Assembly (NCBI RefSeq): GCF_026162365.1
Contig: NZ_JAOANW010000005.1
Span: 310,001 to 374,000 of the forward strand
Reading direction: 5' to 3'
DNA: 64,000 bases
Origin: Nitratireductor luteus
GTDB lineage: Bacteria; Pseudomonadota; Alphaproteobacteria; Rhizobiales; Rhizobiaceae
The notes under the pieces were generated by a model, which did no database searches, was not told where the DNA came from, and saw nothing but the letters and a program-made list of their open reading frames with translations. How positions within the stretch are numbered: position 1 is the first letter of the stretch; every line of letters begins with the position of its first letter. This document shows, in pieces, positions 5,934 through 60,051 of this stretch. A program made the translations under genes and the position numbers.

Positions 5934-6656
5934 CTAGCGGCAATAGGCGCCGCCCCGCCGCCGTTTCATGTCCAGATGGAAATGATCGGCATGATCGGCG
6001 TCGGTTCCGGGGCCGAGCACGGTCGTGAACAAGCCGCAGGCGGCCGCGCGGAGCGCGTCGAGAAACTGCGCCTCAGGACTGTCGGCATCTTCGTATTCGC
6101 GAACGACGACGCGCCTCCCGTCGGCGAGCGTCAGGCTCGCAATATCCAATGCGTTTCCGAAGGCGTGCTGGGAGAGGTTTTCCGTGCCTCGCCGGACCCG
6201 GCATATATAGGCGGAAGCGTGGTTCACGGCCTCGATCCGCGACTTGAAGTGGGTTTCGGCAGCCTTCTGGCCGGCCCGTTGGACAAGCTGCGCGGCCGCA
6301 CGCGCCGTAGGGCAATTCATGACGCCGGTCGGGTGCAGCGCCATTGCCGGGCCCAGCGCGGTGACGTGGATCGGGTGGGGCAGGCTGCAGCCGCCTTCCA
6401 CCTCGACCGCCTCCGCATCGGAGAAGGAAACGCCCAGGCGTTGAAGGTCGCGCCGGCAGGCCTTTTCGTCACCGGGCAGGGCGGGCGGCGACTTTTCCTC
6501 CAGAGGCATGGTTGTCTTTACGGGCGGATCGGCCTGTACACGAAACAGCGGTATCGGGGCCTTGTCGGGGAGACCGACATCTCCGGTTCCCGCATGCCCG
6601 ATGGTGGCGGGCAGAAAGAGAAGCGGCAGCATCAGCGAGAGTCGATATGTGAACAT
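5934..6656 (-). CDS. extensin-like family secreted protein (paralogue of the next gene)
   Basis: A 240-residue second copy of the Extensin-like_C family. The domain shows SQHAFGNALDI and ADHADHFHLDM, matching the neighbour's putative zinc-site motifs. The start at 6656 is preferred over one at 6701 because it gives a signal peptide (MFTYRLSLMLPLLFLPATIGHAG) with a likely cleavage after HAG. Unlike its neighbour it has no lipobox, so one copy may be free in the periplasm and the other lipid-anchored. Cysteines are kept at equivalent places, suggesting disulfides. It lies 119 bp before the paralogue on the same strand. Confidence 0.83.
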   Translation of the reverse strand: MFTYRLSLMLPLLFLPATIGHAGTGDVGLPDKAPIPLFRVQADPPVKTTMPLEEKSPPALPGDEKACRRDLQRLGVSFSDAEAVEVEGGCSLPHPIHVTALGPAMALHPTGVMNCPTARAAAQLVQRAGQKAAETHFKSRIEAVNHASAYICRVRRGTENLSQHAFGNALDIASLTLADGRRVVVREYEDADSPEAQFLDALRAAACGLFTTVLGPGTDADHADHFHLDMKRRRGGAYCR

Positions 6657-6711
6657 GGCCGGTTGGCAATCCCTGGCTGCAATCTCTTCTTTGCAAACCA
6701 TTTCAGATTGA

Positions 6712-7137
6712 TCAAGCGCCCAGTTCTTCGAGGCCTTCTTCCAGCCAGTCGCTCAGCATGGGCATGCTTAGGAGATAGCCCGCCAACCTCTGGTTGACCC
6801 GCTGCTGCGCGCCCGTCACCGCTTCGTTCCATTCCTGGCGGTCGTAGTCGCCTCGGCCAATCCAGGCGATGGCGAGAAGTTCCGCTGCTTCATCGACATT
6901 GAGGTCGGCGACAAGTTCCCGGAACTCCTCCTCGGTCAGGTTTTCCTCTTCTTCTTCCTGCAGGCCGTCATGGCTGTGGGCATCGGTGGCCTGGTCGGAG
7001 AACTCGATCTCGTGTTCGTGGCCGCTGTCGTAGTCATCATTGACGGCGGCGGAGAAGGCGCGTGCCTTGGCGGCGAGCATGCGCACCGTGTCGGGACTGA
7101 TCGAAAAATCCCAGATCTTTTCTTTCCTTGTCTTCAT
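6712..7137 (-). CDS. DUF3775 domain-containing protein
   Basis: A 141-residue cytoplasmic protein whose sequence (WDFSISPDTVRMLAAKARAF at the start, LTEEEFRELVADLNVDEAAELLAIAWIGRGDY in the centre) matches DUF3775, a family widespread in Alphaproteobacteria and without a known function. An acidic, histidine-rich linker with a run of five Glu (about residues 47-67) joins the N-terminal and central parts. It reads in the same direction as the two extensin-like genes, with a 55-bp gap to the first, so cotranscription is possible. Confidence 0.85.
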   Translation of the reverse strand: MKTRKEKIWDFSISPDTVRMLAAKARAFSAAVNDDYDSGHEHEIEFSDQATDAHSHDGLQEEEEENLTEEEFRELVADLNVDEAAELLAIAWIGRGDYDRQEWNEAVTGAQQRVNQRLAGYLLSMPMLSDWLEEGLEELGA

Positions 7138-7207
7138 CGCGCGCTCGCTCTTTCGATGCCGGCATCATAGCTGAAAACAGGAGGCCTGCCAGCAGGTTGC
7201 ATGTGGC

Positions 7208-8098
7208 CTAGCCAGCCGGCTGGCGTGGCCGGCGCAGGGCCGGGACGATCTCGACCATGAGAATGGCCGAGAAGATCAAGACGCAGCCTGCAAACCCTGA
7301 CGCGGGGAGCTGTTCGGAGAGGAAGACCGCGGCAAACAATGCGGCAAAGACCGCTTCGGTCGACAGGAAGATAGCGGCCTGGGGGGCGGTCGTGTAGCGC
7401 TGGCCGATCACCTGCAGGGTGAAGGCGATGCCGCCGGAGAATATGCCGGCATAGAGGATTTCAGGTGCGGCCAGCCTGATCGCCGTCATATCGACGGGTT
7501 CGAATGCGAAGGCCAGGGCCAGCGCGATAATGGCGGTGACTGCAAACTGCGTGACCGCCAATGTCACGGGACGGCCCGTTCCGGCGGCGCTACGCTGGAT
7601 GAAGATCACCTGGAGCGCCCAGAAAGCCGCGCACAAGATGGTGAGCCAGTCGCCTATGCGCAACGCCACGGCGCCCCCGCCAGAGAGCAGCCAGATGCCC
7701 GCGAGCGCGCAGAGCGTTGCCGGCCAGACGATGCGGTGCGGCCATTGGCGGAAAAGGATCACACCGAAGAAGGGCACCATCACCACGTACAGGCCGGTGA
7801 GGAACCCTGAATTGGTGACGGTCGTGGTCAGCAGGCCTACCTGCTGGGAGGTCATGCCGCCGAACAGCAGGACGCCGATCATGAGAAAGGCTCGCCATTG
7901 ATGCGCGGCAAGGGGCTCGGCCGCATTGCGGCTTTCACGCAGGGCGAAAGGCAGCATCGCCAGGCCCGCAACGGCGAAACGCAGGCCGATGAAGAGAAGC
8001 GGACCGATTGCCTCCATGGCCGTGGACTGGGCAACGAAGCCCATGCCCCACATGGCACCAGCGGTTAACAGCAGGAGATTGGCCTGGATACGGGTCAT
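7208..8098 (-). CDS. EamA/DMT-family transporter
   Basis: Drug/metabolite transporter superfamily permease of 296 residues, with about ten hydrophobic segments arranged as two EamA repeats. The start MTRIQANLLLLTAGAMWGMGFVAQS is typical of the first EamA helix. Such permeases commonly export amino acids or metabolites; the substrate cannot be inferred. It stands alone. A 7-bp hairpin (8165-8182) lies in the 116-bp gap upstream, after the end of the sugar dehydrogenase gene. Confidence 0.88.
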   Translation of the reverse strand: MTRIQANLLLLTAGAMWGMGFVAQSTAMEAIGPLLFIGLRFAVAGLAMLPFALRESRNAAEPLAAHQWRAFLMIGVLLFGGMTSQQVGLLTTTVTNSGFLTGLYVVMVPFFGVILFRQWPHRIVWPATLCALAGIWLLSGGGAVALRIGDWLTILCAAFWALQVIFIQRSAAGTGRPVTLAVTQFAVTAIIALALAFAFEPVDMTAIRLAAPEILYAGIFSGGIAFTLQVIGQRYTTAPQAAIFLSTEAVFAALFAAVFLSEQLPASGFAGCVLIFSAILMVEIVPALRRPRQPAG

Positions 8099-30621: not shown

Positions 30622-30747
30622 AGGGTTCTCTTTACGGGCATTGGCTGCCTTTAAAACAACTGCAGAGTTGTGTATGGCTTCGCGCTGTCGGATCTGACCG
30701 GCCCAATTCGTCTTCCAGACGTCGATGCACCATCGGAGGGTTCTGCA

Positions 30748-31758
30748 ATGAATGACGCCACGCCGGTCGGCATGCCCGTCCGCGCCGGAGAAGCAGCGAC
30801 GCTTGCCATTTCAGTGCGCGGGCTGGTCAAGCATTTCGGCGATGTGAAGGCGGTGGACGGGATCGACCTCGACGTGCCGCGCGGCATGATCTTTGCCGTA
30901 CTGGGGCCGAATGGCGCCGGCAAGACGACGCTTATCCGCATCCTGGCGACGCTGACCGCGCCGGATGCCGGTTCGGCCACGATCATGGACCATGATCTGG
31001 TCAGCGCGCCGCAGGCTGTGCGCGGCGCCATCGCCATGACCGGGCAGTTCGCCTCGCTGGACGAGGATTTGACGGGACGCGAGAACCTGATCATGCTCGC
31101 CCGGCTCTGGGGCTTTGCCGGCAGGCGGGCGAAGGACCGCGCCGACGAGCTGCTTGCCGCCTTCGATCTTTCGGATGCGGCCAGGAAGCAGGTCAAATCC
31201 TATTCCGGCGGCATGCGGCGGAGGCTCGACATTGCCGCCTCGCTGATCGTGACGCCGGGGGTTCTGTTCCTCGATGAGCCGACCACGGGGCTCGACCCGA
31301 AGGCCAGACAGGGCGTGTGGCGGATGATCCGGCAGCTTGCGCATTCGGGCGTCACCATACTGCTGACCACGCAATATCTCGAGGAGGCGGACCAGCTTGC
31401 CGCGCGCATCGCCGTCATCGATCACGGACGCAAGATTGCGGAAGGGACCAGCCGCGAATTGAAGTCGGCCATCGGCTCCGGCTTCCTGCATGTGGCGGTG
31501 GCCGACCCGGCACGGCTGGACGAGGCGGAGGCGATCCTGGAGATGCGGCTTGGCGGCACGGTGCAGCGCAGCCCGGAGGGCGCGCAGCTTTCCATCGTGG
31601 CCGGGTCGCCCAAGGCCGCCAACGAGGCGCTGGCGGCGCTGATCGCGGCCGGGATAGAGCTCGCCGATTTCTCCATGGGCTCGCCCAGCCTCGACGAAGT
31701 GTTCTTCGCGCTCACTGGCCAGCCACTGGATGAGGACGAGAAGGAGGACGCGCAGTGA
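30748..31758 (+). CDS. ABC transporter ATP-binding protein, DrrA-like
   Basis: ATPase of a two-gene ABC-2 exporter of the daunorubicin-resistance type. It is 336 residues from the ATG at 30748 behind GGAGGG. Walker A is GPNGAGKTT, the signature is YSGGMRRRLD, Walker B is VLFLDEPTTGLDP, and the C-terminal DrrA-specific extension ends in MGSPSLDEVFFALTG. It overlaps the permease gene by 4 bp (GTGA). Drug, lipid or polyketide export is typical for the family; the substrate is unknown. Confidence 0.93.
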   Translation: MNDATPVGMPVRAGEAATLAISVRGLVKHFGDVKAVDGIDLDVPRGMIFAVLGPNGAGKTTLIRILATLTAPDAGSATIMDHDLVSAPQAVRGAIAMTGQFASLDEDLTGRENLIMLARLWGFAGRRAKDRADELLAAFDLSDAARKQVKSYSGGMRRRLDIAASLIVTPGVLFLDEPTTGLDPKARQGVWRMIRQLAHSGVTILLTTQYLEEADQLAARIAVIDHGRKIAEGTSRELKSAIGSGFLHVAVADPARLDEAEAILEMRLGGTVQRSPEGAQLSIVAGSPKAANEALAALIAAGIELADFSMGSPSLDEVFFALTGQPLDEDEKEDAQ

Positions 31759-32564
31759 GCACGACCAATATCAGCCCCGCGACGCTCTCCAACATCGCGC
31801 GCCCGCCGCAGCCTTCCGCCTTTTCGAACGCGCTGGTGTTCGGCTGGCGGGCGGTGCTGAAGTTCAAGCATGTGCCGGAGCAGCTTTTCGACCTCATCAT
31901 GACGCCGCTCATGTTCACGCTGCTGTTCACCTTCGTGTTCGGCGGCGCGCTGGCGGGCTCGACGAGCGACTATCTGCAATTCTTCCTGCCGGGCATCCTG
32001 GTGCAGACCGTGGTCTTCAATTCGGTCTATTCGGGCATGGGCCTTTCCACGGACCTGTCGAAAGGGCTGTTCGAGCGCTTCCGCTCGCTGCCCATCTGGT
32101 CCTTGGCACCCTTTGCCGGGCTGATGGTGGGCGACGTGCTGCGCCACATCATCGCCGGGCTGATCATTCTCGGCGTCGGGCTGGCTCTGGGCTACCGGCC
32201 GGAGGCCGGCCTTGTGGGGGTGGTCGCCTCCTTCGCGCTTCTTATCGCTATCGGGTTCGGCGTGGGCTGGATATTCATCGTGCTCGGCCTTTTGATCCGC
32301 ACGCCGATGACGGTGATGACCATCGGCTTCACCTTCATCTTCCCGCTGGTCTTCGCCTCCAACATCATGGTGCGGCCCGAGACCATGCCGGGCTGGCTTG
32401 AGGCCTTCGTCGTGCGCAACCCGGTCTCGCACATGACGACGGCGCTGCGCGGGCTGATGGCCGGCGAGGCGACGAGCGGGCAGGTGCTTCTGGCCCTTGC
32501 CGCGCCCGCGCTGCTTACGCTCGTGCTGGCGCCGGTGGTGCTGTGGCTTTACCGGCGTAACTGA
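31755..32564 (+). CDS. ABC transporter permease, DrrB-like (ABC-2 type)
   Basis: Membrane partner of the preceding ATPase: 269 residues with six hydrophobic segments and the ABC-2 motifs LFTFVFGGALAGSTSDYLQFFLPGILVQT and the NPVSHMTTALRGLM segment near the end. Translation begins at GTG, overlapping the upstream TGA by four bases after GGAGGACGCA, so it is coupled to the ATPase. Together they form a complete efflux pump. Confidence 0.93.
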   Translation: MSTTNISPATLSNIARPPQPSAFSNALVFGWRAVLKFKHVPEQLFDLIMTPLMFTLLFTFVFGGALAGSTSDYLQFFLPGILVQTVVFNSVYSGMGLSTDLSKGLFERFRSLPIWSLAPFAGLMVGDVLRHIIAGLIILGVGLALGYRPEAGLVGVVASFALLIAIGFGVGWIFIVLGLLIRTPMTVMTIGFTFIFPLVFASNIMVRPETMPGWLEAFVVRNPVSHMTTALRGLMAGEATSGQVLLALAAPALLTLVLAPVVLWLYRRN

Positions 32565-52157: not shown

Positions 52158-52193
52158 ACATGCAGCCTGTATGTTAATTAAAGATACATGCAG
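52156..52193. promoter_or_regulatory. candidate TetR operators
   Basis: ATACATGCAG occurs twice in the same direction (52156-52165, 52184-52193), 28 bp apart. Around the first copy, ACATGCA-GCC-TGTATGT (52158-52174) is a near-perfect palindrome (6 of 7 pairs); the second reads ACATGCAGTATGT. They lie in the gap between tetR and the VOC gene and partly overlap the tetR start codon. Confidence 0.6.
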
Positions 52194-52223
52194 TATGTTT
52201 CTTTTGCCAAAGGATGCCAAGCC

Positions 52224-52634
52224 ATGAAGATCACCAGCTATTATCCGGTTATCATGACCGAGAACGTATCGGGGACCGCCGCTTTCTACATGGCGCATTT
52301 TCGGTTCCGGCCGGTGTTCGAGAGCGATTGGTACGTGCATCTGCAGTCGAGCGAGGACCAAAGCGTCAATCTGGCTGTTCTCGACGGCGACCATGAAACA
52401 GTTCCGGAGGTGGCGCGAGGCCGGGTTTCGGGACTCATACTGAACTTCGAGGTCGAAGACGTGGAGGCCGAATATGAGCGGGCGAGGGGAGCCGGGCTGC
52501 CCGTTTTGCAGACATTGCGCGATGAGGATTTCGGCCAGCGCCATTTCATAACACGGGACCCGAACGGAGTGCTGATCGACGTCATCAAGCCGATCGAGCC
52601 CAGTGCGGAGTTCATGAAGCAGTATATGCCTTGA
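52224..52634 (+). CDS. VOC family protein (glyoxalase/bleomycin resistance superfamily)
   Basis: A 136-residue protein of the vicinal-oxygen-chelate fold: two beta-alpha-beta-beta-beta modules, with [31 protein letters not shown] at the start and [18 protein letters not shown] at the end. Start 52224 follows AAAGGA. It is controlled, by position, by the divergent TetR gene. VOC proteins are metal enzymes or drug-binding proteins; no specific activity can be given. Confidence 0.87.
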
Positions 52635-52766
52635 GGTCGGAGCGGCTGTCGGCGGCATCTTGCGATGCCCGTGCGGCAGGCGCATAGTTGATGGCGGCGG
52701 TGGGGTAACAGGTCCGGCGCCTAGCGGGTTGTTCCGCTTGTGTCACGGCGCCGGGGGAGGTGTGAC

Positions 52767-53060
52767 GTGACGACATATATCATGCTGGTGAACTGGACAG
52801 ACCAAGGCGTGAAAAACGTGCGCGAGTCGCCGAAGCGGCTCGACACCGCCAAGGCCCTGCTCGAGGAGATGGGCGGTGCGTTCAAGGCCGTCTATCTGAC
52901 CATGGGCGACTGCGACTTGGTGGCTGTGTGCGAAGCGCCGGACGATGCAGTTGCGGCGCGGTTCGCGCTGACGCTAAGTGCCGGCGGGAACGTGCGTACG
53001 CGCACGCTCAAGGCGTTCCCTGAGGCCGCCTATCGCGAGATCATCAAGTCACTTGGTTGA
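52767..53060 (+). CDS. GYD domain-containing protein
   Basis: A 97-residue protein of the GYD family (PF08734): the start TTYIMLVNWTDQGVKNVRESPKR and the central YLTMGDCDLVAVCEAPDDAVAARFAL match well. It has a ferredoxin-like dimeric fold; function unknown. Translation appears to start at GTG 52767 behind GGGGGAGG. It precedes yjbQ by 29 bp and may share its transcript. Confidence 0.87.
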   Translation: MTTYIMLVNWTDQGVKNVRESPKRLDTAKALLEEMGGAFKAVYLTMGDCDLVAVCEAPDDAVAARFALTLSAGGNVRTRTLKAFPEAAYREIIKSLG

Positions 53061-55346: not shown

Positions 55347-55373
55347 GACGCACACGTTTGAAGGAATCCGACA
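55347..55373 (-). promoter_or_regulatory. ECF42-type promoter P3 (before the PhnB-like gene)
   Basis: Read on the minus strand: TGTCGG (55368-55373), a 17-bp spacer, CGTC (55347-55350). It is identical in boxes and spacing to P1 and P2 and lies in the 95-bp gap between the MFS gene and the PhnB-like gene. Confidence 0.75.
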
Positions 55374-55390
55374 GGCGCCGGAATTTCTTT

Positions 55391-56938
55391 TCATTCCGCA
55401 GCAGCGGCCGCGCCCCTGTCCGGACTTCCCTTGAGGCGGAATATGCGCGCTATGAGGAGCGCGGTGGCGATGGCGATGAGCGCGGCGGCGACGGAGGCGG
55501 CGACCAGGCCGCTGGTGAACGCCGCCCGCGCCGTATCGATCAGCACGGCTGCCGGTCCGGCAGGCAGTTCGGCCGCGACGGCGACCGCGCCGCCCAGCGT
55601 GTCGCGCGCCGCCTCGGTCAGCGGGCCGGGTACGCCCGGCAGCGCATCGGCGTTCATCGTGCTGCGGTAGACAGCCGTGACCAGGCTGCCGAGCACGGCA
55701 ATCCCCAGTGCGCCGCCCAGTTCCGCGCTGGTTTCTGACATGGCCGAAGCGGCGCCCGCGCGCTCCGGCGGCGCACTGCCGACGATGAGATCGGTGGTCA
55801 GGGTGAAGACGGGGGCGAGGCCTAGCGCGAACACCGTGAATGCCAGCACAATCATTACAAGATCGGCCGCAAGCGCGGCCCAGGCCAAAGCCGCAAAGCC
55901 GATCGCAGCGATCAGGAGACCTCCGACCATGACGGTGGCCGGTTGCATCCTTGCCGTCAGGGCCGAGGTCATCATTGAGCCGGCGATGAAGGCGAGGCTG
56001 GACGGTAGCGACCAGATGCCGGCTTCAAGCGGGGTGAGCCCCAGCACCAGTTGCAGATATTGGGCGATGAAGAGGAAGGCTCCGAAGGCGATGAACAGGC
56101 TCAGGAGATTCGTCGCGAGCGCAGCGTTGAAGGCTGGCTTGCGGAACAGGCTGACGTCGATCATCGGGTCGGTAAGCCGCTTCTGCCGGCGGAAGAAGAC
56201 CACGCCGAGGCAAAGACCGGCCAGTGTGAAGACGAGCGGAACGAGACCTGCCCCATGCTCGGCCAGATGCTTGATGCCGTAGATGACGGCAAGGACTGCC
56301 GATAGCGAAAGGGCGGCGCTGAGGATATCGAGCCTGCCCGCCTTTTCATCGCGGAATTCCGGCAGCAGGAAGGGCGCGACGGCCAGAAGCAGGAGCATCA
56401 CCGGCACGGCGATCAGGAAAACCGATCCCCACCAGAAGGAAGCCAGGAGAACTCCGCCGACCAAAGGGCCGATGGCCGCGCCTGCGGAATAGCTGGAAAT
56501 CCAGATGCCGATGGCGAAGGTGCGCTCCTTCGGGTCGTGGAACATGTTGCGCAGCAGCGAAAGGGTCGACGGTGCGAGCGTGGCTGCGGCCACGCCGAGA
56601 ATGGCGCGGGCAGCGATGAGCATCTCCGCGCTGGTGGCGAAGGCCGCGAAGACAGAGGCGGCGCCGAAGGCGGTGGCGCCGATGAGCAGGAGCTTGCGCC
56701 GGCCTATCCGATCGCCGAGCGTGCCCATGACGATGAGGGAGCCGGCTACGAGGAAACCATAGATGTCGACAATCCAGAGGAGCTGAGAGCTCGTCGGTTT
56801 CAGATCGGCGCTGAGCGCGGGTATCGCCAGATTCAGGACTGTCATGTCCATCGAATAGAGCAGGCAGGGCAGGGCCAGGACGGCCAGACCGATCCATTCG
56901 CGCCGGCCCGCGCGCGGTGCTTCGTGAGCGTGGTTCAT
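55391..56938 (-). CDS. MFS transporter, DHA2 family (QacA/SmvA-like)
   Basis: Proton-driven multidrug efflux pump, 515 residues with 14 predicted helices. GRREWIGLAVLALPCLLYSMDMTVLNLAIPAL at the start and GDRIGRRKLLLIG (motif A) near residue 80 are typical of DHA2 proteins such as QacA and SmvA. The start at 56938 follows GGAAGGA; the open frame runs 90 bp further without family similarity. It lies in the ECF42 module, downstream of the DUF899 gene by 138 bp, so it may provide the module's export step. Confidence 0.9.
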   Translation of the reverse strand: MNHAHEAPRAGRREWIGLAVLALPCLLYSMDMTVLNLAIPALSADLKPTSSQLLWIVDIYGFLVAGSLIVMGTLGDRIGRRKLLLIGATAFGAASVFAAFATSAEMLIAARAILGVAAATLAPSTLSLLRNMFHDPKERTFAIGIWISSYSAGAAIGPLVGGVLLASFWWGSVFLIAVPVMLLLLAVAPFLLPEFRDEKAGRLDILSAALSLSAVLAVIYGIKHLAEHGAGLVPLVFTLAGLCLGVVFFRRQKRLTDPMIDVSLFRKPAFNAALATNLLSLFIAFGAFLFIAQYLQLVLGLTPLEAGIWSLPSSLAFIAGSMMTSALTARMQPATVMVGGLLIAAIGFAALAWAALAADLVMIVLAFTVFALGLAPVFTLTTDLIVGSAPPERAGAASAMSETSAELGGALGIAVLGSLVTAVYRSTMNADALPGVPGPLTEAARDTLGGAVAVAAELPAGPAAVLIDTARAAFTSGLVAASVAAALIAIATALLIARIFRLKGSPDRGAAAAAE

Positions 56939-57076
56939 CACAAGATCCTTCCAGAGACGCTGCCGACCAGGGATGGCCGTGCGGACACGTCGAATATCGT
57001 GGAGTGGCCGCCGGCGAAGCAAGCGCATGCCGGCGACCCGTATCGCTTATGGCACAGGCCTCCTGCCAGCACTCTG

Positions 57077-57793
57077 TCAGGAAGCTGCCTTCTGCAGAGC
57101 CGGATACTCGTCGTGACGGTGCACCCAGTCGAGCGGGGTCTTCTCGTCGCGGCCGATCGGCGTCAGGTCGAGATACATCAATGCGCCCAGCAGTTCCTCG
57201 CCGCCGCGCGCGTAGGTGGAATAGGTATGGAACACGGCGCCGTCGCGGTCTTTGTAGAAGACGCTAAGGCCCGGAAGGTCGTCGATGCCGGGATCCTTGA
57301 TGACCTCGTAGTTGTAGATCGCCTTGCCTTGCTCCAGGTCCTGCTTCCGAAAGGCGACGTTGAAATCATAGTTGAAATCACTGTCGCCGGACGAGACCCA
57401 GGGGAAAGACCAGCCCATACGCTTTCGATAGGCTTCGATCCTGGCGATCGGCGCGCGGGACACCGCGACGAAGGTGACGTCCTTGTGCAGGAAGTGCTGG
57501 CGCGCGCCGTCGACATGGTCGGCTTCGAAGGAGCAGCCGGGGCAGCCGGCATTCCAGTCCGGCGCAAACATGAAATGCTGGACGATGAGCTGGCTGCGGC
57601 CATCGAACAGTTCGGCGAGCGTCTTGCGGCCTTGCGGCGTGTCGAAGACGTATTCCTTGTTGATCTTCACCCAGGGCAGGCCGCGGCGCTCGGCAGCTAT
57701 CTCGTCGCGCAGGCGGGAAGCCTGCTTCTCCCTGCTCAGCAATTCCTTGCGGGCGATAAGCCATTCTTCTCGGGAAACGGTCTTGTTCTGCAT
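57077..57793 (-). CDS. DUF899 family thioredoxin-like protein
   Basis: A 238-residue protein of the DUF899 family, a thioredoxin-fold group sometimes called predicted dithiol-disulfide oxidoreductases. The redox-like motif is APDWNAGCPGCSFEADHVDGA (CPGC), and LPGLSVFYKDRDGAVFHTYSTYARGGEELLGALMYLDLTPIGRDE is highly characteristic. Substrate unknown. It is a common companion of ECF sigma factors with YciI proteins. A promoter-like TGTAGG-N18-CGTC precedes it. Confidence 0.9.
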   Translation of the reverse strand: MQNKTVSREEWLIARKELLSREKQASRLRDEIAAERRGLPWVKINKEYVFDTPQGRKTLAELFDGRSQLIVQHFMFAPDWNAGCPGCSFEADHVDGARQHFLHKDVTFVAVSRAPIARIEAYRKRMGWSFPWVSSGDSDFNYDFNVAFRKQDLEQGKAIYNYEVIKDPGIDDLPGLSVFYKDRDGAVFHTYSTYARGGEELLGALMYLDLTPIGRDEKTPLDWVHRHDEYPALQKAAS

Positions 57794-57840
57794 TTTCCTT
57801 CTCCTTTCACTGCAAGCGTCGCCTGATGCGACTGCCGGAG

Positions 57841-57868
57841 GACGTGCGGCGGGAGTGCGGGTCCTACA
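57841..57868 (-). promoter_or_regulatory. weak ECF42-type promoter P4 (before the DUF899 gene)
   Basis: On the minus strand TGTAGG (57863-57868), 18-bp spacer, CGTC (57841-57844). It differs from P1-P3 by one base in the -35 box and one base in spacing, and lies 48 bp before the DUF899 ATG. Confidence 0.4.
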
Positions 57869-57893
57869 TTTTCAGGTTCGCTTTTTGGTCTTA

Positions 57894-58250
57894 TCAGTCG
57901 ACCTCGATATCGTGGGTCGCGCGGACTTCGATCGTGCCGTAGCCGACCATGGGCACCTTGGAGGCAAGGGCGATGGCTTCCTCCCGGTCCTTCGCCTCGA
58001 TCAGAAGGAAGCCCAGCAATTGTTCCTTGGATTCGGCGAAGGGACCATCGGTACTGACAATCTTGCCGCCGCGCGTGCGCAGGCAGGTCGCCCGGGAAAC
58101 CGATTCCAAGGCGTCGGAGGCGATCAAATGGCCGACTTGTTCCAGGACCTTGTCATAGGCGATGGAATCGCGGTCGAGCTTCCGCCTTTCGTCTTCCGGT
58201 AGAGCCTCGATTGCCGTTCCATCGCCGTAGACGAGACATACATACCGCAT
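57894..58250 (-). CDS. YciI/DGPF family protein (second copy)
   Basis: A 118-residue YCII-related protein with the DGPF motif (STDGPFAESKEQLLGFLLIEAKDREEAIALASKVP). It has a ferredoxin-like fold; a His-Asp pair of YciI hydrolases is not clearly kept. It is the second DGPF protein flanking the ECF42-type sigma factor and has its own TGTCGG-N17-CGTC promoter 34 bp before the start. Its role may be signalling to the sigma factor or a reaction on a reactive compound. Confidence 0.9.
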   Translation of the reverse strand: MRYVCLVYGDGTAIEALPEDERRKLDRDSIAYDKVLEQVGHLIASDALESVSRATCLRTRGGKIVSTDGPFAESKEQLLGFLLIEAKDREEAIALASKVPMVGYGTIEVRATHDIEVD

Positions 58251-58283
58251 GGGTGCCTCCCTGGTTTCCGTCTGCGGCCAGAG

Positions 58284-58310
58284 GACGGATGGCGGCAGGC
58301 TTATCCGACA
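58284..58310 (-). promoter_or_regulatory. ECF42-type promoter P2 (before the second YciI gene)
   Basis: On the minus strand: TGTCGG (58305-58310), 17-bp spacer, CGTC (58284-58287). Boxes and spacing equal those of P1 and P3. It lies in the 99-bp gap after the sigma factor gene. Confidence 0.75.
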
Positions 58311-58349
58311 TTTCTCGTTTGCAAACTGCCATTGCCAACCCCACAGCGG

Positions 58350-59615
58350 CTAACCGGCCTCCTGTCTTTTCGAGCCGTCGCCGGTCAGCCGGTCGATATG
58401 CTGCCGGATATGGGTTGCCTCGGCTGGTGTGCGGGCCAACGATATGGCCTTGTCGAAAGAGATGCGGGCGTCGTTTCCCCGGCCAAGCTCCATGAGCAGC
58501 GCGCCGCGCAGTCCGTGGAAGTAAAAGTAGTTCGACAGCCTTTCCTCAAGCGGTTCGACAAGTTCGAGCGCGGGGGCCGCCCCATGGGCCTTGAAGACGG
58601 CGACGGCGCGGTTGAGCGTGACGACCGGGGACGGCTGGAGGCGCTCGAGCATGCGGTAGAGCAGTTCGATCTCCTGCCAGTCCGTGTCCTTCGGAGCCTT
58701 GGCGTGGGCATGAAGAGCGGCGATGGCGGCCTGGATCTGATAGGGACCGGGCTCGCGGTGGCGCATCGCCTTGTCGACCAAGGCGATGCCCTCGGCGATG
58801 AAATTGCTGTTCCACAGGGAGCGGTCCTGATCCTCCAGAAGGACGATCTGGCCATCTTCATCGAGGCGCGCAGGGGTGCGCGCATGGTTGAGGAGCATAA
58901 GGGCCAGAAGCCCCATGATCTCCGGCTCGGTCGGGAAAAGCCGCAGCAGGAGGCGGGCAAGGCGGATGGCCTCGTCGCATAGCTGCGTCTTGATGTGCGC
59001 CTCGCCGCCGCTGGCCGAATAGCCCTCGTTGAAGACGAGATAGATCATGGCGGCCACCGCGCCCAAGCGTTCGGCGCGTTCGGCCGGGCCCGGCGTGGCG
59101 TAGGGGATATTGGCATCGGCAACGCGGCGCTTGGCGCGGGTGATGCGTTGTTCCACCGCTTTTTCATTGGCGAGGAAGGCGCTGGCGATCTCGCGCACGG
59201 AAAGGCCCGAGACGATGCGCAAGGCGAGCGCGATCTGCTGGGTGGCGGGAAGGTCAGGGTGGCAGCAGATGAACATGAGGCGCAGAATGTCGTCGCGGTA
59301 ATGGGCGTCGTCCAGCCGCTCGGCCATGCCTGCCTCCGCGTCGTCGAGGTCTGACAGGACGTCGTCGGACGGGAGCTGCGTGTTGCGCGCATCGCGGCGC
59401 ACGGCGTCGAGGGCGGCGTTGCGCCCGACGAAGATGAGCCACGCGGCCGGATCGCGCGGCGGGCCCTTTTCGGGCCAGTTCTTCATGGCGCGCAGGCAGG
59501 CCTCCTGGAAGGCTTCTTCGGCCCGGTCGAGATCACGGAAATAGCGCAGCAGCGCGGCCATGGCCTGGGGGCGGGCCGCCGCGAGCGCTTTCTCGATCCA
59601 GGCAATATCGTTCAT
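58350..59615 (-). CDS. ECF42-type RNA polymerase sigma factor with C-terminal extension
   Basis: A 421-residue sigma factor of the group ECF42 (DUF6596 proteins). Sigma region 2 lies at about residues 10-80 (RDLDRAEEAFQEACLRAMKNWP), region 4 at about 110-165 (LALRIVSGLSVREIASAFLANEKAVEQRITRAKRRV), and the long TPR-like C-terminal extension of about 230 residues contains the group's DQDRSLWN motif. ECF42 factors have no anti-sigma factor; the extension controls activity. It overlaps the upstream YciI gene by 4 bp, so both share promoter P1, which matches the ECF42 consensus and implies autoregulation. Confidence 0.92.
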   Translation of the reverse strand: MNDIAWIEKALAAARPQAMAALLRYFRDLDRAEEAFQEACLRAMKNWPEKGPPRDPAAWLIFVGRNAALDAVRRDARNTQLPSDDVLSDLDDAEAGMAERLDDAHYRDDILRLMFICCHPDLPATQQIALALRIVSGLSVREIASAFLANEKAVEQRITRAKRRVADANIPYATPGPAERAERLGAVAAMIYLVFNEGYSASGGEAHIKTQLCDEAIRLARLLLRLFPTEPEIMGLLALMLLNHARTPARLDEDGQIVLLEDQDRSLWNSNFIAEGIALVDKAMRHREPGPYQIQAAIAALHAHAKAPKDTDWQEIELLYRMLERLQPSPVVTLNRAVAVFKAHGAAPALELVEPLEERLSNYFYFHGLRGALLMELGRGNDARISFDKAISLARTPAEATHIRQHIDRLTGDGSKRQEAG

Positions 59616-59998
59616 CCGGCAAGCTCTATTTTTTCGGGCAATTCGCCCGTGTTGAAAATGCGCAAGGGGCGAATTTCGAAGGTGCAGGATTCGCCCTCCT
59701 TCATCCGCTTGGCGAAGTCGATCACTTCTTCCAAGTTCCTGCAGTCGACGATGTAGAAGCCAAGGAGCTGTTCCTTGGTCTCAGCGAACGGCCCGTCGAT
59801 GACGATCTGCTCGTTGCCCGATGCGCGAATGGTGGTGGCTGCGGTGGTGGGCACGAGACGGATGGAGGGGCCCATTCGACCCTCGTCCACGAGGGCCTGC
59901 TGGACCTTCTGACGCTTTGCCAGGACCGCATCGTCCTCTTCCTTGGTCCAGGATTCGACGACGTCCTCGTCATGGTAGCAAAGGATAGCGTAGAGCAT
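59612..59998 (-). CDS. YciI/DGPF family protein coupled to the sigma factor
   Basis: A 128-residue YCII-related protein: MLYAILCYHDEDVVESW at the start and VIDGPFAETKEQLLGFYIVDCRNLEEVIDFAKRMK with the DGPF motif. The start at 59998 lies behind AGGAG and 27 bp after promoter P1; its stop overlaps the start of the sigma factor gene (ATGA). Fixed pairing of DGPF proteins with ECF42 factors is a known genomic pattern. Confidence 0.92.
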   Translation of the reverse strand: MLYAILCYHDEDVVESWTKEEDDAVLAKRQKVQQALVDEGRMGPSIRLVPTTAATTIRASGNEQIVIDGPFAETKEQLLGFYIVDCRNLEEVIDFAKRMKEGESCTFEIRPLRIFNTGELPEKIELAG

Positions 59999-60024
59999 TG
60001 CTGCAATTCTCCTGTCGTTTGAAA

Positions 60025-60051
60025 GACGGGTGAGCATGCCCTATTCCGACA
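60025..60051 (-). promoter_or_regulatory. ECF42-type promoter P1 (YciI-sigma operon)
   Basis: On the minus strand: TGTCGG (60046-60051), 17-bp spacer, CGTC (60025-60028). The published ECF42 promoter has TGTCGA at -35 and CGA/TC at -10, as far as I recall, so this is a near-consensus match. It lies in the 150-bp gap to divergent pyrC. Confidence 0.78.

Follow-up and report, generated by a model that had tools for sequence, protein, structure and literature searches.

The sigma factor locus and its promoters

A 64,000-nucleotide stretch of the Nitratireductor luteus genome, referred to here in its full length as the window, carries a gene for an ECF42-type sigma factor, a gene for a YciI/DGPF protein placed directly before it, and several copies of the motif TGTCGG-N17-CGTC, the two blocks of which stand exactly 17 bases apart. 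This article assesses the motif as the promoter of a regulon that the sigma factor would drive, drawing on the window, the remainder of the genome, the genus and the order. The sigma factor had been called ECF42-type in a first-pass annotation of the window, and that identity stands, based on its regions 2 and 4, its YciI neighbour and its orthology to RpoE10 of Sinorhizobium meliloti, a related bacterium of root nodules. Pfam recognizes both sigma regions (Sigma70_r2, 2.1e-12; Sigma70_r4_2, 9.7e-10), and the approximately 240 residues past region 4 match DUF6596 (4.5e-38) as well as TPR_2, the latter at 24.5 bits and under its cut-off of 27. The directly upstream YciI gene agrees with the ECF42 trait of an adjoining YCII/DGPF gene, and the protein is 68.5 % identical, over 98 %, to the sigma factor of S. 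meliloti Ak57 that is encoded beside the published SMc01151 promoter. No anti-sigma family appeared in a Pfam scan of the genes at 54.2-61.2 kb, a scan that did not take in every reading frame. The stop codon of YciI and the start codon of the sigma gene overlap as ATGA. Across 80 related loci, which surround sigma-gene relatives that are 66-82 % identical and total 1.51 Mb, a 4-base overlap recurs in 71 and no YciI-sigma fusion was found; the ATGA overlap suggests that the two proteins are made in matched amounts.

An exact pattern search of the window recovered three minus-strand copies of the motif at the coordinates given in the first-pass annotation and with the 17-base spacing intact (promoters 1-3, Table 1). 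Their distances from CGTC to ATG are 26, 33 and 51 bases, in agreement with the 27-52 bp reported earlier once the counting convention is allowed for. Two further exact matches came to light, at 30686-30712 on the plus strand (promoter 4) and at 2084-2110 on the minus strand. By chance, 0.22 exact matches are expected per shuffled window, and five were reached in none of 100 shuffles; the three minus-strand sites are real, not products of chance. The 139 sites behind a position-weight matrix came from related loci, some of them of the same genus but none in the window. Under this matrix, the next-best window position after the four promoter-like sites scores 2.2, and no position of three shuffled windows exceeds 11.9. 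At 2084-2110, the match scores -3.1 and falls within open reading frames, and it was therefore rejected as a promoter. The spacers had been described as unrelated. This is true when the three sites are compared with each other, but close relatives have spacers similar to that of the YciI promoter, many of them with GGCAT.

Table 1. Promoters and genes of the sigma factor system in the window
Feature	Position	Strand	Basis and remarks
Promoter 1, then TT, G at presumed transcription start 60016	60025..60051	-	Weight-matrix score 37.0, highest of the window; same place in sister genome G014
Promoter 2, then CT, G at presumed start 58275	58284..58310	-	Score 23.8; same place in G014
Promoter 3, then TT, G at presumed start 55338	55347..55373	-	Score 22.9; same place in G014
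Promoter 4, then TT, G at presumed start 30721	30686..30712	+	Score 25.9, ranking second in the window; also in G014
Degenerate promoter-like TGTAGG-N18-CGTC before DUF899, weak	57841..57868	-	Best minus-strand N18 score, 9.6; kept in G014
YciI/DGPF protein 1, 128 residues	59612..59998	-	Pfam YCII 1.6e-20; nearest solved structure 1s7i PA1349
ECF42-type sigma factor, 421 residues: region 2, region 4, DUF6596, weak TPR match	58350..59615	-	Pfam
YciI/DGPF protein 2, 118 residues	57894..58250	-	Pfam YCII 9.9e-21
DUF899 thioredoxin-like protein, 238 residues	57077..57793	-	Pfam DUF899 7.6e-95
DHA2-type MFS drug exporter, QepA/LfrA-like, 515 residues	55391..56938	-	Pfam MFS_1
VOC/PhnB-like protein, 137 residues	54882..55295	-	Pfam Glyoxalase 4.1e-16; solved PhnB-like relatives
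DrrA-type ABC exporter ATPase, 336 residues	30748..31758	+	TIGR01188 drrA 355.5 bits, over cut-off of 312.45
ABC-2 type permease, DrrB-like, overlaps ATPase gene	31755..32564	+	Pfam ABC2_membrane 7.2e-25

The ATG of the DrrA-type ATPase gene lies 35 bp past promoter 4, and the permease that follows has DrrB-family matches that are below cut-off. The DHA2-type exporter matches NCBIfam qepA at 1e-169 and 565 bits, under the cut-off of 1075. A weight-matrix scan saw no motif in the gap upstream of this pump, and the site before DUF899 is degenerate, its score being close to that of another N18 site (8.9); membership of both genes in the regulon hence rests on presumed read-through from the second YciI promoter. 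Among the five genus loci in which DUF899 was found within the set L048-L062, three carry an exact site before it. Near the cluster (52188-53060, plus strand), another VOC protein and one with a GYD domain are encoded, without a promoter motif.

Anatomy and specificity of the promoter signal

Within the 80 related loci, TGTCGG-N17-CGTC occurs 165 times in its exact form, and 144 of these copies lie 5-100 bp before a start codon that has a Shine-Dalgarno sequence. Fifteen altered motifs, with spacings of 14, 15, 16, 18, 20 or 23, with reversal, or with single changed bases in either block, gave 0-23 matches in the same DNA and 0-5 in such a start-proximal position; these counts rule out N16 and N18 as general spacings. 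In the genus, a search of 16 genomes for the motif followed by a Shine-Dalgarno sequence and ATG gave 104 matches (99 distinct sites), versus 2 for a reversed control.

Conservation extends past the second block. In the 139 related sites, CGTC is followed by C or T in 97 % and then by T in 99 %, and the base at +35, counted from the first T of TGTCGG, is a purine in 136. A purine stands at that place in 58 of the 65 genus sites that carry the C/T-T pair. In full, the signal reads TGTCGG-N17-CGTC(C/T)T, with a purine nine bases past CGTC, where transcription presumably starts. Position +35 is read as the start; two of the promoter strings printed for S. meliloti (PMC6180224) have their last base there.

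The bare motif is a poor guide. A whole-genome count of TGTCGG-N16-18-CGTC, proposed in the first-pass annotation as a check, returned 147 matches against 59 for the reversed form and is unspecific, while the enrichment before genes that the same check called for is borne out in the related loci. Since the bare motif is common in the genome, such enrichment upstream of genes is the test that is needed; bare counts were discarded as a definition of the regulon on account of their noise, and position relative to Shine-Dalgarno sequence and ATG was added, together with the flanking bases.

Upstream of the YciI-sigma operon itself, the exact motif is present in 69 of the 80 loci. The other 11 comprise six in which it is one base off (L075, L076, L092, L100, L108, L112), one with N18 (L074), one two bases off (L127), two with none (L113, L122) and one that ends at a contig edge (L054).

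Distribution across the order

Sigma factor and motif (with Shine-Dalgarno sequence and ATG) were both sought in 121 genomes of the order, classed by best sigma identity as at least 60 % (n=21), 50-53 % (n=4), only paralogues of 32-47 % (n=25), or no match at 1e-50 (n=71). Without the C/T-T filter, the motif was found in 20/21 (mean 3.52), 4/4, 4/25 (mean 0.20) and 19/71 (mean 0.32) of these classes, respectively; with the filter, the figures are 18/21, 3/4, 0/25 and 1/71. Fisher's test on the filtered counts, first class versus the last two, gives 3.7e-17, a value that does not account for phylogeny. This pattern supports assigning the motif to the sigma subfamily represented in the window and not to distant ECF42 paralogues.

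Relation to RpoE10 of S. meliloti and other ECF42 systems

One study on S. meliloti (PMC6180224) places RpoE10 in ECF42, reports that it induces the operons SMc01149-SMc01148 and SMb20475-SMb20474 and, in Table 1, prints promoter strings for these two operons and for SMc01151-rpoE10, each of which counts as TGTCGG-N17-CGTC. In strain Ak57, the published SMc01151 string matches at 39/39 bases and the SMc01149 string at 38/39, around the YciI-sigma pair. The main text of a start-site map (PMC3616915) contains no passage on these promoters. The N. luteus locus is the same system as S. meliloti RpoE10, in another genus, and the motif was largely known already; what is added here is a fourth site, a promoter code at the level of single bases, and a dispersed, genus-wide regulon. 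The two systems share the orthologous sigma factor, the YciI-sigma order with its 4-base overlap, the TGTCGG-N17-CGTC promoters, and glyoxalase-like and ligand-binding (SRPBCC) targets. They differ in that the targets predicted here from sequence also include DHA2 and DrrAB exporters, DUF899, DUF1428, RibD_C and a second YciI.

Two observations concern the S. meliloti records themselves. The Ak57 SMc01151 promoter (L208, 3579-3605) shows all conserved features, with A at +35. The 3.7-Mb record CP090106.1 is labelled plasmid pSymB, yet it has dnaA beside the sigma locus and looks like a mislabelled chromosome.

Elsewhere, the review PMC8999054 describes three ECF42 factors of Streptomyces venezuelae, Sven_0747, Sven_4377 and Sven_7131, that, as here, combine a C-terminal extension with YCII partner genes. 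Pseudomonas putida ECF-10 (PP4553) likewise belongs to the ECF42 group and is linked to stress and antibiotics (PMC4613276, PMC8999054).

The predicted regulon beyond the window

The notion that three sites outline the regulon proved too narrow, given the fourth site in the window and further ones elsewhere in the genome. A DUF1428 gene begins 28 bp past a site at C40:305581-305607, and a RibD_C (dihydrofolate-reductase-like) gene 37 bp past one at C12:302283-302309, both outside the window. A gene for a Bcr/CflA-like MFS exporter lies 57 bp past C43:225057-225031 and is kept only as a possible target, and several other N17 matches of the genome were rejected as promoters, being inside reading frames. 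Of the module proposed earlier, which comprised two YciI proteins, DUF899, the DHA2 pump and the VOC protein, the YciI and VOC genes have promoters of their own and the middle two would belong only through read-through; the regulon is dispersed and not one local module.

Within the genus, the 16 genomes have from 2 to 14 motif matches each. A survey of 73 fetched sites yielded a first gene for 66 and no frame of at least 60 residues for 7. By Pfam, the most frequent first genes encode AHSA1 (10), DUF1428 (7), DrrA-type ABC (7), alpha/beta hydrolase (6) and DoxX (6) proteins, followed by 3-dmu-9_3-mt (4), Glyoxalase (4), RibD_C (3), YCII (2) and GST (2); single DUF899, SnoaL, DJ-1 and GyrI-like first genes stand among the 25 of 35 families listed. 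A DrrA-like first gene follows the motif in seven other genomes of the genus. The literature searched, which mostly did not include subscription papers, contained no description of a regulon of this kind in the genus.

A proposed mechanism and its alternatives

The best explanation of the data as a whole, and a highly probable one, is that the sigma factor, with its coupled YciI protein, drives the TGTCGG-N17-CGTC(C/T)T promoters of a dispersed regulon. RNA polymerase carrying the ECF42-type sigma factor would read the full signal and start at the purine nine bases after CGTC. At least four transcripts of the window would be produced in this way, namely YciI-sigma, YciI 2-DUF899-DHA2 pump, the VOC protein and the DrrAB exporter, along with the DUF1428 and RibD_C genes and perhaps the second MFS exporter outside it. 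Sigma activity might be controlled through the C-terminal extension with YciI as partner. Reviews propose that the extension has a partner-binding TPR domain and that the YCII protein is involved (PMC8999054, PMC9023288). The targets would bind, alter or export toxic small molecules, and for that reason a toxic compound or its product is a likely signal. ECF42 factors are widespread, and with an exact promoter code and a base-level start, the regulon can be deduced in dozens of species from genome sequence alone. The targets, drug exporters and small-molecule enzymes among them, hint at a possible signal and provide genes to test, and the locus offers a clean case for whether a coupled YciI protein is the sensor.

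Sequence comparison documents the motif and the exact spacing of its blocks, its placement ahead of genes and its link to the sigma subfamily; from these, we infer that the main sigma factor recognizes the sites in N. luteus. Several points weigh against this account. The 80 loci, like the genus set, are related by descent, and their sites are not independent trials; additionally, 46 of the 165 sites are also located in a reading frame called by a crude gene caller. In the N. luteus genome, the N17 count of 21 is only about twice the 11 of the reversed control. The choice of the C/T-T filter and of the identity classes followed inspection of the data, three genomes with the sigma subfamily (G065, G068, G086) have no CGTC(C/T)T match, and such a match is present in one genome in which the sigma search found nothing. 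Some genus sites are false, because 8 of the 73 lack C/T-T, the 7 noted above lack a frame, and one first gene has a terminase domain. According to PMC4613276, a P. putida ECF-10 knockout is reportedly more antibiotic resistant, and therefore a simple protective role does not fit.

Two short blocks a fixed distance apart might in principle form an operator, bound by a repressor or activator and not by a sigma factor. This is extremely improbable, as the blocks form neither an inverted nor a direct repeat, the spacing fits a -35/-10 layout, a conserved purine coincides with the starts of S. meliloti transcripts, and the site tracks the sigma gene across genomes. Many ECF sigma factors can share such genomes, and recognition by the main sigma factor is predicted, so that a different ECF sigma factor might read the sites and the neighbouring ECF42 gene be only one of its targets; however, the motif co-occurs with the main subfamily rather than with distant ECF42 paralogues, S. 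meliloti operons that carry it respond to RpoE10, and the second ECF42 pair of the genome (see below) has the differing motif TGTCGA-N17-CGAC, all of which makes this very unlikely.

More weight attaches to doubts about self-regulation. The first-pass annotation described the sigma factor as autoregulated, and conservation of the motif in most related operons agrees with this, but PMC6180224 reports that SMc01151, the operon of RpoE10 itself, was not raised by RpoE10 overexpression in S. meliloti, and that a 5' end was mapped inside the SMc01151 motif; the latter may be a processed or different end. The motif before YciI-sigma could be weak or activation-only, with the operon transcribed mainly from another promoter. 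Set against this are the exact motif at 69 of 80 operons, the completeness of the S. meliloti site down to its +35 base, and the YciI-sigma promoter being the top score of the window, and the absence of self-regulation is considered rather unlikely. Based on these sequence features, the sigma factor likely autoregulates its own operon.

A second YciI-ECF42 pair and a genus-wide view

The genome encodes a second YciI-sigma pair, the sigma factor of which is 45 % identical to the first (C41:360550-361770). In the fetched locus L128, its sigma frame spans 6524-7768 and its YciI 6162-6527, the pair corresponding to approximately C41 360161-361767. The sigma match from a genome search is shown with an internal stop, yet the frame is open, with 414 residues from a GTG.

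Upstream of this pair stands TGTCGA-N17-CGAC, the only such site in the genome with a Shine-Dalgarno sequence and ATG. The promoter motif of S. venezuelae ECF42 factors is reportedly TGTCGA / CGA(T)C, and the first-pass annotation gives a form of that type for ECF42 factors in general. Here, a TGTCGA-type form precedes the second, paralogous pair and not the main sigma gene, which goes with TGTCGG-N17-CGTC(C/T)T.

A broader picture, put forward tentatively and with some doubt, is that the genus has a genome-scattered and quickly reshuffled regulon, in which ligand-binding or ligand-modifying proteins (AHSA1, DUF1428, VOC, DoxX, RibD_C, YCII, GST) and drug exporters may be recruited singly by acquiring the rigid 17-bp-spaced promoter, as well as a pair of ECF42 switches that use different promoter codes, TGTCGG/CGTC(C/T)T for one and TGTCGA/CGAC for the other, and each of which has a YciI protein of its own as likely sensor.

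As an order-wide marker of the paralogue, TGTCGA-N17-CGAC was rejected as unspecific, with matches in 53 of the 121 genomes, many of them through one recurring coding stretch. That stretch serves as a warning for motif counts made without gene context.

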